Positions 550 through 18,758 of a stretch of 22,719 bases of DNA are shown here, piece after piece (position 1 is the stretch's first letter; every line of letters starts with the position of its first letter). The stretch covers positions 1 to 22,719 of IMG/VR virus record IMGVR_UViG_3300010296_000100. One strand, 5' to 3'. Position numbers and translations under genes: made by a program. Source of the stretch: a virus. The notes under the pieces were generated by a model that was given only the letters and a program-made list of their open reading frames with translations, ran no database searches and had not been told where the DNA came from.

Positions 550-560
550 TGGGAGAGGAA

Positions 561-591
561 GGGCTGTTAATCAGCCCGCCTTATTTTTTTT
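561..591 (+). terminator. Intrinsic terminator abutting the next start codon
   Basis: A perfect 6-bp stem GGGCTG (561-566) / CAGCCC (572-577) with a 5-base loop is followed by GCC and an 11-base T-rich tract (581-591). This is a classic factor-independent terminator after the decoration-like gene. The tract ends exactly where ATG 592 begins, so the signal also serves as the leader of the next gene. The only Shine-Dalgarno-like run (GAGGAAGG, 554-561) lies before the hairpin. Confidence 0.75.
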
Positions 592-3576: not shown

Positions 3577-4350
<774 letters not shown>

Positions 4351-4375
4351 CGATATTATTCGTTTGGTGATACGC

Positions 4376-4390
4376 TAATACAGTAGTAGG
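4376..4390 (+). promoter_or_regulatory. Possible phage-type (T7-like) late promoter before capsid gene
   Basis: TAATACAGTAGTAGG starts with the TAATAC hexamer of T7-family promoters and ends in a TA-GG that could be an initiation point, immediately before a hairpin. It lies in the 88-base gap ahead of the capsid gene, the longest non-coding stretch here and the place where T7 has its strongest late promoter. The match is only partial, no second intergenic copy was found, and no phage RNA polymerase gene is in the window, so this is a weak call. Confidence 0.3.
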
Positions 4391-4416
4391 TTGTTTATGT
4401 ATTAAGCATGAGCAAC
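4390..4416 (+). other. RNA hairpin in capsid gene leader
   Basis: Bases 4390-4399 pair continuously with 4407-4416, giving ten base pairs (eight Watson-Crick and two G-U) closed by a 7-base loop, TATTAAG. It is not followed by a T-run, so it is not an intrinsic terminator. Its 3' side ends 5 bases before the Shine-Dalgarno AAAAGGA (4422-4428) of the capsid gene. It may protect the 5' end of the transcript, mark an RNase cleavage site, or tune translation; the pairing is seen, the role is inferred. Confidence 0.6.
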
Positions 4417-4438
4417 AAATATAAAAGGACAAATAGAT

Positions 4439-5668
4439 ATGGCAAATCCTAATTCGGGTGCTTTAACATACAATGATTCTTTATTGAATAAAGAATACGT
4501 TTATCCTGACATAGTGCGTTCTAGTAGGGTCTACGCTCCCTTCTTAATGAACCACATGAAGGGTGTGTCAAAGTACAATTCTAAAATGCAATGGTTCCAA
4601 CAAGCAATTTCGCAAGGAACTGTAACAATCAGTAGTAATTACACAGCGTCAGACGCTACAATCAGTGTAACTGCTCCTAGTAACTATAGCCCATTCGATA
4701 CTGAAATCAAAGCTAATGTTTCTCAACTAGTAACACAAGATGGTGGTTTAAGATTCAATGTAACTGCTGTAAATGGAACATTCACAGTATTAACAGTATC
4801 GGTAGCTAGTGGTACAGATACAAATTTAGCGGCTGGAACTAAATTATTTATTTCAAGACGTGGTGATATTGGTGATGATTTTGGTTCACAAAATGATATT
4901 TCAACTGCAACAACTGACTATAACTTTATTACAAGTTTCAGTCATACGCTTAAAATTGCTAACCCAATTGCAGATGGTTCATTTGAAAGTTTCGGTGAAA
5001 ACGAATTATCATTTTCTCGTCAACTTGAAAACTTATATCCAACAGTTATCAGAAACATGGAACGTGGATTATTAAAAGATTCAAGAATAGAGGGTGCAAA
5101 TCCTAAATCTGGAGCTGGTTTCACAAGAACGGCTGGTACTGGCGCACAAGCTGGTGGACTTGTATCATTCATTTCATCAGGTGGTGGTTACACAATATCA
5201 AGTGGTTCAGCAGCTTTAACTGAGTCTACTTTAATTACTGATATGGGTAACTTAAGAGACAGAGGTGCATTTACAAATCCGAGTGCAATGGAAAGAAGTT
5301 ACGGTGGAGACACTTGTGATGCTTATATTTCGCCAGCAACTTTAGGTGATATCAATAAGCTTGCAAGATTAGAAAGAGACGACAAAGCACTTTCAGCACA
5401 AGAAAATGGTAAGTTTGGTACATTCGTTACTCAAGTAATTGCGGACGGAGTATTAGTAAGCTTCTATTTATCAGACGGTGTAGCGGATAACGAAGTAATT
5501 TATGTTCCTAAGAAGGAATATATTGAAGCTAAAGTTATGCGTTTAGCAGAAGAACAGCCTGAATTACCAGGTGGTGATAACACTAAAAAAATGTTTGCAA
5601 CAACATTCTCGTTATGTGTTAAAGCACCGTGGATTTTAGGACACAGAACAAACTTAGTAAGACTATAA
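4439..5668 (+). CDS. Major capsid protein (HK97-fold, SU10/DUF5309-like)
   Basis: The 409-residue product follows the scaffold and resembles the SU10-type major head proteins (DUF5309 family) in layout: a short N-terminal arm (residues 1-50), a Thr/Ser/Val-rich inserted beta region (about 60-140), a long helix around residues 190-215 (RQLENLYPTVIRNMERGLL) that would be the spine helix, and a closing segment where a GD is followed by a strand-rich end (GGDNTKKMF, then LCVKAPWILGHRTNLVRL). The HK97 fold and shell role are established for that family; membership here is by pattern, not search. The Shine-Dalgarno AAAAGGA sits 10 bases before ATG 4439. The leader carries a hairpin and a possible promoter, fitting very high expression. 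No N-terminal delta domain is evident, in agreement with the separate scaffold gene. Confidence 0.88.
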   Translation: MANPNSGALTYNDSLLNKEYVYPDIVRSSRVYAPFLMNHMKGVSKYNSKMQWFQQAISQGTVTISSNYTASDATISVTAPSNYSPFDTEIKANVSQLVTQDGGLRFNVTAVNGTFTVLTVSVASGTDTNLAAGTKLFISRRGDIGDDFGSQNDISTATTDYNFITSFSHTLKIANPIADGSFESFGENELSFSRQLENLYPTVIRNMERGLLKDSRIEGANPKSGAGFTRTAGTGAQAGGLVSFISSGGGYTISSGSAALTESTLITDMGNLRDRGAFTNPSAMERSYGGDTCDAYISPATLGDINKLARLERDDKALSAQENGKFGTFVTQVIADGVLVSFYLSDGVADNEVIYVPKKEYIEAKVMRLAEEQPELPGGDNTKKMFATTFSLCVKAPWILGHRTNLVRL

Positions 5669-17750: not shown

Positions 17751-18611
17751 ATGTTTGGTGGTGCAAAAAAATTAAAGATAGATACATACGAAGACTTAAT
17801 CAAAGCTTTAAAAGGTGAGCAGGGTAATAGAGGCGTACCTGGTCGTGGTATTAAAGAAATTAAACAAGACGGTTCAGATTTAATTCTAGTCTATGATGAT
17901 AACACTGAGTTTACAGTAGTTAATGTTAAAGGCAAAGAAGGTGAGCAAGGCCCTCAAGGAAAACAAGGCGAACCAGGCCCTAAAGGAGATCAAGGTGATA
18001 AGGGTGAGACTGGTAGTCAAGGAGAAAAAGGGAACTCTGGCCCTCAAGGGGAAAAGGGTGAACCTGGCGACCCAGGAGATGTTGGGGCTCAAGGCCCGAA
18101 AGGTGAAAAAGGTGATCCAGGAGCGCAAGGGCTACAGGGGCCAAAGGGTGATTGTGGTGAGCAAGGTAGTCCAGGTGAGAAAGGTGAGAGGGGAGATCAA
18201 GGCGATCAAGGCCCGAAAGGTGAAAAGGGTGATCGTGGTGAAAAAGGCGACCCAGGTAAAGACGCACCGTTATCACAATGGATAAAAGTACAAGATATCA
18301 GCGTTGACACTACTAACAGTGGTAAACAAGTTATTTTTTCAGAAAAATATTCAAACAAAATTTTATATGCAGTTAAAGTATTAGTTTTTGGTAAAGCCAG
18401 TGAAGCTAATGCTTGGTTTGTAGGCGAAAGATTATTTACTATAAACCCAAGCAAACAAAGTATCAACATCAAGACGCTAATCCCAGAGGAAAAAACTCAT
18501 TCCGAACTTAGTTTTGGTGTTGAATTATCTGACGACTGTTACGATTTATTCGTTATTGGAATCGACATGAACTTTAATTGGAAAGCGAAAGTCGAGGTTT
18601 ACGCATTGTGA
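17751..18611 (+). CDS. Collagen-like tail fibre protein
   Basis: GGAG (17740-17743) serves ATG 17751. The 286-residue protein has an N-terminal part (1-60) with a short GEQGNRGVPGRG stretch and a beta hairpin (IKQDGSDLILVYDDNTEFTV, residues 37-56) of the kind that trimerises before collagen stretches in phage fibres. Residues 61-171 are 37 uninterrupted Gly-X-Y triplets, rich in Lys, Glu, Asp and Gln with Pro in X or Y. One triplet has Cys (residue 135). A globular C-terminal domain (172-286) with DAPLSQWIKVQDIS and a Trp-containing close follows and could bind a receptor. A trimeric rod with terminal heads is expected from known collagen-like phage proteins. The stop overlaps the next gene (GTGA). 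Confidence 0.85.
   Translation: MFGGAKKLKIDTYEDLIKALKGEQGNRGVPGRGIKEIKQDGSDLILVYDDNTEFTVVNVKGKEGEQGPQGKQGEPGPKGDQGDKGETGSQGEKGNSGPQGEKGEPGDPGDVGAQGPKGEKGDPGAQGLQGPKGDCGEQGSPGEKGERGDQGDQGPKGEKGDRGEKGDPGKDAPLSQWIKVQDISVDTTNSGKQVIFSEKYSNKILYAVKVLVFGKASEANAWFVGERLFTINPSKQSINIKTLIPEEKTHSELSFGVELSDDCYDLFVIGIDMNFNWKAKVEVYAL
17931..18263 (+). repeat. Gly-X-Y collagen-like repeat region
   Basis: This stretch encodes 37 consecutive Gly-X-Y triplets. Repeated pieces such as GGTGAAAAAGGTGA and CAAGGCCC(T/G) recur with small changes, so the region probably grew by internal duplication. It is the part most likely to vary in length among relatives. Confidence 0.9.
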
Positions 18612-18748
18612 TTGTAAACGGCTTTCTGTTTAATGGATTTTTTCTGTTTATACAGAGGTTATTAGGCCCAGAACCAGGTGCAGCATTGTTACAGGAAGAT
18701 GGGTTTTATTTGTTACAAGAAGATGGTTTCAAATATTTGTTAGACTAA
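18608..18748 (+). CDS. 46-residue microprotein with LLQEDGF repeats
   Basis: GTG 18608 overlaps the collagen-gene stop (GTGA), and the frame runs 46 codons to TAA 18746-18748, nearly filling the space before the next gene. The N-terminal 19 residues are strongly hydrophobic (IVNGFLFNGFFLFIQRLLG), and the rest has an 8-residue repeat: LLQEDGFY, LLQEDGFK, then YLLD. Repeats of the type LLQExGx or LLLExGx occur in longer virion and fibre proteins of marine phages, where each unit probably makes one beta turn; here it stands alone. A membrane-touching or small structural role is possible; function is unknown. The gene call is supported by coupling, the fit to the gap and the repeat. Confidence 0.55.
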   Translation: MIVNGFLFNGFFLFIQRLLGPEPGAALLQEDGFYLLQEDGFKYLLD

Positions 18749-18758
18749 GGGGGGAGTT

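Follow-up and report, generated by a model that had tools for sequence, protein, structure and literature searches.

The question raised by this locus is what kind of promoter, if any, drives the major capsid gene of a virus represented by a 22,719-bp fragment (the window, by which we mean this whole stretch of DNA). The gap that we studied, positions 4351-4438, separates the major capsid gene from the gene just upstream, which occupies the scaffold position. The features to which the analysis refers are as follows.

561..577, + strand: terminator-like hairpin followed by T8, 3' of gene g1 (1-549)
3577..4350, + strand: gene upstream of the gap, an ORF for a very acidic protein of 257 aa
4348..4377, + strand: second hairpin, unlisted in the initial annotation, TAGCG-(A)-TATTATT loop GGTGATA-CGCTA, spanning the upstream stop codon
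4354..4359, + strand: rival -10 hexamer TATTAT, 5/6 to TATAAT, with a start near 4366
4368..4376, + strand: proposed extended -10 element TGATACGCT (TGnTAnnnT), from enrichment in relatives and weak by matrix
4376..4390, + strand: motif TAATACAGTAGTAGG of the initial annotation, made up of the last base of the proposed -10, the discriminator AATACA, and the start region GTAGTAGG
4383, + strand: predicted transcription start, the G of GTAGTAGG, six bases after the -10, placed by the six-base spacing to GTA in relatives
4390..4416, + strand: leader hairpin of 10-11 pairs with loop ATTAA, from sequence and fold prediction
4424..4429, + strand: Shine-Dalgarno AAAGGA, predicted unpaired; capsid ATG at 4439
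4439..5668, + strand: major capsid protein gene, 409 aa, Pfam SU10_MCP PF17236

The capsid assignment follows from a match to PF17236 (E 1.2e-6; 28.7 bits versus a cutoff of 24.1), and the gene at 6331-7023 matches the Pfam SU10_adaptor family. PHROGs gave no family match for the 3577..4350 gene, with which genes of relatives align at the same place; its position points to a scaffold role for its product. The initial annotation had described TAATACAGTAGTAGG ahead of the capsid gene, a hairpin beginning on the last base of this motif, and then a Shine-Dalgarno and the capsid ATG. The letters of the motif are exact, the pairing at 4390-4416 was confirmed, and AAAGGA ends at 4429, upstream of the ATG at 4439. 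Its description of the gap as the longest in the window does not hold literally, since 18612-18758 spans 147 nt; a 56-aa frame (18578-18748) covers most of that longer gap, however, and among gaps without a plausible small gene 4351-4438 ranks first in length. This frame, itself unlisted, contains the repeated words LLQEDGF and overlaps the end of a gene at 17751-18611 for a collagen-like repeat protein (GxxGxxG) within the tail-region genes. Terminator-like hairpins lie 3' of g1 in the window (550-591) and, as read by eye, in four relatives (L037, L107, L058, and L059), and several relatives have one 3' of the capsid gene as well; none was found 3' of the capsid gene in the window. Such hairpins suggest two separate high-output units, one for g1 and one for the capsid gene.

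In phage T7, the phi10 promoter and a 5' stem-loop leader lie ahead of capsid gene 10. The gap had been interpreted in the same manner, as a divergent promoter for a phage single-subunit RNA polymerase with a leader like that of gene 10, because the capsid gene is preceded by TAATAC, then AGTAGTAGG, and by a 5' hairpin. Scored by ungapped identity against the 23-bp T7 consensus, the site at 4376 matched at 8/23 positions, a chance level that 6,160 forward positions equaled or exceeded. The best score in the window was 16 on each strand, equal to the 14 to 17 of shuffled sequence, no site came within three mismatches of the T7 20-mer, and the promoter likeness of TAATAC, present in 12 copies on the + strand and 21 on the - strand, was not above chance. 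TAATACAGTAGTAGG has no exact second copy within the 22,719-bp fragment; with three mismatches it has three copies (1.0 expected; 2 of 100 shuffles have as many), all inside genes, which leaves the motif without repeats in noncoding sequence. The T7 RNA polymerase model PF00940 matched none of nine records of this phage family, some of them contigs of 41 to 43 kb, in a search in which the polymerase gene of phage T7 itself was recovered (9.9e-110); an earlier search of 11 records was likewise negative, with its control silent. Furthermore, the element that is repeated in relatives, described below, is a different one. With the consensus match and the repeated copies lacking in the fragment and the polymerase gene lacking in the nine family records, we rejected a T7-type system, which is very improbable here. 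What stands of the original proposal is a promoter with a hairpin leader, supported by a promoter-like element in the capsid gap of relatives and by the hairpin near the predicted 5' end. The likeness to T7 phi10 and the gene 10 leader is thus one of arrangement, a promoter plus 5' stem-loop before a capsid gene, whereas the polymerase class and the promoter letters differ. Correcting the T7 label matters, as it would have suggested a phage polymerase.

Relatives were collected by a search with the nozzle protein (12 loci), by profile scans that added L037, L046, L049, L053, L057-L061, L064, L087, L102, and L104 (other rows being repeat contigs), and by a genome-contig scan that added L107, located in a 358-kb scaffold of a Candidatus Caenarcanales bin. 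Single-sequence scans of viral contigs with the capsid and portal proteins gave no match; in the phages collection the capsid and portal proteins had no match and the nozzle protein did. Relatives retain the order of the genes that flank the capsid gene, and capsid identity to the window was 59% for L037, 54% for L107, 45-47% for subgroup A (L005-L015), 39% for L058, 33% for L016, and 29% for L104; that of L059, measured against L037, was 44%. Distant nozzle relatives (L121-L131 and others), mostly weak, were found in 34 of 97 genomes around the Caenarcanales bin, bin included, and those loci that could be read have different capsid genes.

Our set of gaps was drawn from upstream of the capsid gene and of g1, an upstream virion-gene homologue, with one or two gaps from each lineage (16 in all), and came to 13 after removal of three near-duplicates (the G003 capsid, G003 g1, and L059 g1 gaps). 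In the window, what precedes g1 falls beyond the left end of the record. Set next to one another, most of the gaps agree with a pattern of TGnTAnnnT, a spacer of six bases, and then GTA or AGGA. The pattern TGNTANNNT (TGnTAnnnT) was present in 8 of the 13 nonredundant gaps (shuffle mean, 1.33; 0 of 1000 shuffles with as many) and in 9/16 before removal of duplicates, and TAnnnT-N6-GTA was present in 7/13 (null, 0.68; 0/1000). Because the pattern was framed after the gaps had been seen, these shuffle counts overstate significance; the extended -10 shape was already an established motif. None of 24 control upstream regions from the same phages (g2, g7, the adaptor gene, and the window's portal gene; about nine lying inside coding sequence) contained TGNTANNNT. 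The element was also absent from all 10 gaps taken from distant prophages with a similar nozzle and other capsid genes, a negative control that adds no further support. A blind sampler at width 18 placed the element in register in 13/16 gaps by our reading, missing the window, L037 g1, and G010 g1. Among the regions compared, the element is enriched ahead of g1 and the capsid gene and absent ahead of other genes.

Gaps were also compared within single genomes. In subgroup A, both the g1 gap and the capsid gap carry AATAGAAATATACTTTA or a close form, and the 8-mer ATATACTT has only two to three copies per genome in four genomes, two of them in the g1 and capsid gaps. In L059, the two gaps are identical over 19 consecutive letters and also share the Shine-Dalgarno region. 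Likeness between the g1 and capsid gaps of one genome was equaled by 0 of 1000 shuffles for L059 and G001 and by 1 for G003; it was moderate for L037 and G010 (17 each) and L107 (35). The L058 gaps were not alike by alignment, with 979 of 1000 shuffles as good.

Homology of position makes it likely that a promoter lies somewhere in the window's gap, its exact site being left between candidates, and the gap showed no significant likeness to the gap of any single relative (best, 85/1000, with L037 g1). The consensus of extended -10 promoters of the sigma-70 family is TGnTATAAT. The window agrees with TGnTAnnnT at 4368-4376, resembling such promoters in the TG, T-12, A-11, and T-7 and in having no clear -35, with a start predicted, as is usual for them, about six to seven bases after the hexamer. 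The putative promoter differs at three of the six hexamer positions (CGC), so that instead of a near-consensus TATAAT the window has TACGCT (3/6). The run TGATACGCT-AATACA-GTA at 4368-4385 is the sole noncoding one among three window matches to TGNTANNNT-N6-GTA (1.29 expected; 13/100 shuffles have three). Matrices built without the window ranked 4368 at 103 of 45,402 positions (four nearest sites) or at 555 (14 sites), and the blind sampler picked a third place in the gap. Elsewhere in the window, the top matrix match was at 18738, from which a start would fall six bases before a GTG.

Within the same kind of promoter, the active -10 could instead be the TATTAT at 4354-4359, with a start near 4366, a longer leader, and TGATACGCT unused. 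This hexamer is the better one and has a -35-like AAGACA at a spacing of 16, and the two matrices built without the window both scored its site (4351) above 4368 and highest in the gap. The arrangement AAGACA-16-TATTAT, a 9/12 match in our scan, belongs to a group of 58 such sites (74 expected), and it is without the TG and the GTA start seen in relatives, which leads us to regard this choice of hexamer as rather unlikely. A more basic alternative is that the gap contains no promoter and the capsid gene is expressed by upstream read-through, with the hairpins acting as processing or 3'-end-stabilizing structures in the RNA that joins the scaffold-position gene to the capsid gene. The weak promoter match of the window and the two adjacent hairpins that read-through RNA would contain (gap fold z of -3.0) are consistent with this alternative, yet relatives keep the repeated element exactly in the capsid and g1 gaps, and we consider exclusive read-through quite improbable.

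The reading that we favor, at somewhat better than an even chance, is that the gap is a late promoter of the bacterial sigma-70 family type, driving the capsid gene from the extended -10 element TGATACGCT and followed by a hairpin leader. In this model, TGATACGCT at 4368-4376 would act without a recognizable -35 box, and the multisubunit RNA polymerase of the host would read it, carrying a sigma that is encoded by the host or by the phage. The predicted start lies about six bases further along, near G4383 and seven bases before the hairpin, and would give an RNA that begins GUAGUAG, forms the hairpin of 4390-4416 close to this 5' end, and keeps its Shine-Dalgarno unpaired. By forming a cap-like structure at the 5' end, the hairpin may slow the decay of an RNA that is used heavily. 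Beside what was directly observed (the letters, the fold prediction, the over-representation of the element in the capsid and g1 gaps of relatives, and a sigma gene in four relatives), we infer all four of the following: TGATACGCT as the active site, the start point, the sigma that reads it, and the stabilizing role.

Genes with sigma-70 region 2 were found in G001, G002, G003, and G009, just past the structural module. These genes (in G001 at 27163-27927) lie on the strand opposite to that of the structural module. They had no region 4 match in Pfam, and the one tested against PHROGs gave a sigma match. Searches of the window fragment, G010-G014, G018, and the L107 prophage, a set that includes the nearest relatives and some incomplete records, gave no sigma gene; for G014, ten chosen ORFs were checked. 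The bin of L107 yielded only distant host sigma copies. Because no sigma was found in the window fragment or its nearest relatives, a host sigma is as likely for the window as a phage one.

Phage phiEco32 has an SU10-type capsid and adaptor in common with the phage of the window. One report describes its sigma, gp36, as being without region 4 homology, as in our relatives, and as reading single-element promoters (PMC8948821); a -10-only element therefore fits such a sigma. As described there, the gp36-dependent middle and late promoters lie before late structural genes, as here, and their element, tAATGTAtA, differs from the one in these phages (PMC8948821). phiEco32 also differs in that no sigma was seen in the window or its nearest relatives. 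We rejected the phiEco32 element for the window, since TAATGTATA with at most one mismatch occurs at chance level window-wide (14 sites versus 14.8 expected) and is absent from the gap.

The leader hairpin reads GTTGTTTATG-TATTAAG-CATGAGCAAC and has 10 pairs, two of them G-U, to which folding adds an 11th (T4400-G4406). The fold of 4351-4441, cut at the ATG, was better than 200/200 shuffles (z of -3.0); that of the longer stretch 4351-4460 was less clear (z of -1.84; 10/200 shuffles). RNA beginning at 4383 had a fold that beat all 500 shuffles, and the predicted probability that the Shine-Dalgarno is unpaired was 0.95 in read-through RNA and 0.98 in RNA from 4383. The 4348-4378 segment folded at -8.8 kcal/mol, with 9/500 shuffles as good, and other folds of the region compete with the second hairpin at 4348-4377, which only read-through RNA would contain. 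An Rfam scan at gathering thresholds gave no match.

Whether the leader hairpin has any role is a separate matter. Comparable hairpins are absent from the capsid gaps of the two nearest relatives, L037 (z of -0.5) and L107 (z of -1.4), and the stem is therefore not conserved among nearest kin, an outcome that the initial annotation, as with the lack of a phage polymerase (here in the relatives examined), had named as counting against its proposal. In addition, stems of this kind (10 bp, loops of 3-8) are not unusual across the window, with 3 seen versus 3.7 expected in shuffles. Both results are as expected if the hairpin is a chance product of an AT-rich gap. Against this, such a stem arose in only 85/5000 shuffles of the 88-nt gap, and the capsid gap of another subgroup is also strongly structured (z of -6.8 and -5.0). 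We regard a chance origin as a substantial possibility, short of an even one.

That other subgroup is subgroup A, whose 12 contigs contain only four distinct leaders and whose capsid gap forms a much stronger and different structure from that of the window. The very stable stem before the capsid gene (L006:6783-6848 and its equivalents in L005-L015 and L046) is predicted to hold the -10-like element in its 5' arm and the Shine-Dalgarno in its 3' arm. By prediction only, the Shine-Dalgarno was unpaired with a probability of 0.33 in read-through RNA versus 0.58 and 0.73 from the predicted start in two leaders. Covariation was uninformative, as no pair changed on both sides among three distinct rows. 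According to one report, the Shine-Dalgarno of T4 gene e is sequestered in read-through RNA by a stem that contains a late promoter-like element (PMC3014915). As described there, the gene e, soc, and I-TevI leaders resemble subgroup A in having a promoter-like element in the 5' arm and a hidden Shine-Dalgarno (PMC3014915), a likeness known for subgroup A from fold prediction and without compensatory change. They differ from the window, where the Shine-Dalgarno stays free, and with its unpaired probability of 0.95 in read-through RNA we rejected a switch of this type for the window. We likewise rejected one for L107 g1, where a small hairpin touches the Shine-Dalgarno and accessibility falls from 0.60 to 0.43 in RNA from the predicted start. 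It is conceivable, if unlikely, that subgroup A has a gene e-like switch by which only phage-sigma-started RNA would make capsid protein, and that the paired hairpins of the window would be a diverged remnant or variant of it at the corresponding gap.

The gap in the window is thus probably a late promoter with a structured leader, an ordinary and known kind of device in a little-known phage family. In place of a T7-type promoter, the favored reading offers a bacterial-type late promoter that can be tested, in a family most of whose known members come from metagenome contigs, and subgroup A provides a candidate sigma together with two candidate target promoters per genome. As for the host, the L107 locus (with L114 and L115; JABSOS010000004.1) is bounded at one edge by a phage integrase gene, past which lies a flagellar FliK gene, and is therefore an integrated prophage, and its residence in the Candidatus Caenarcanales bin is the only host hint for the phage family of the window.
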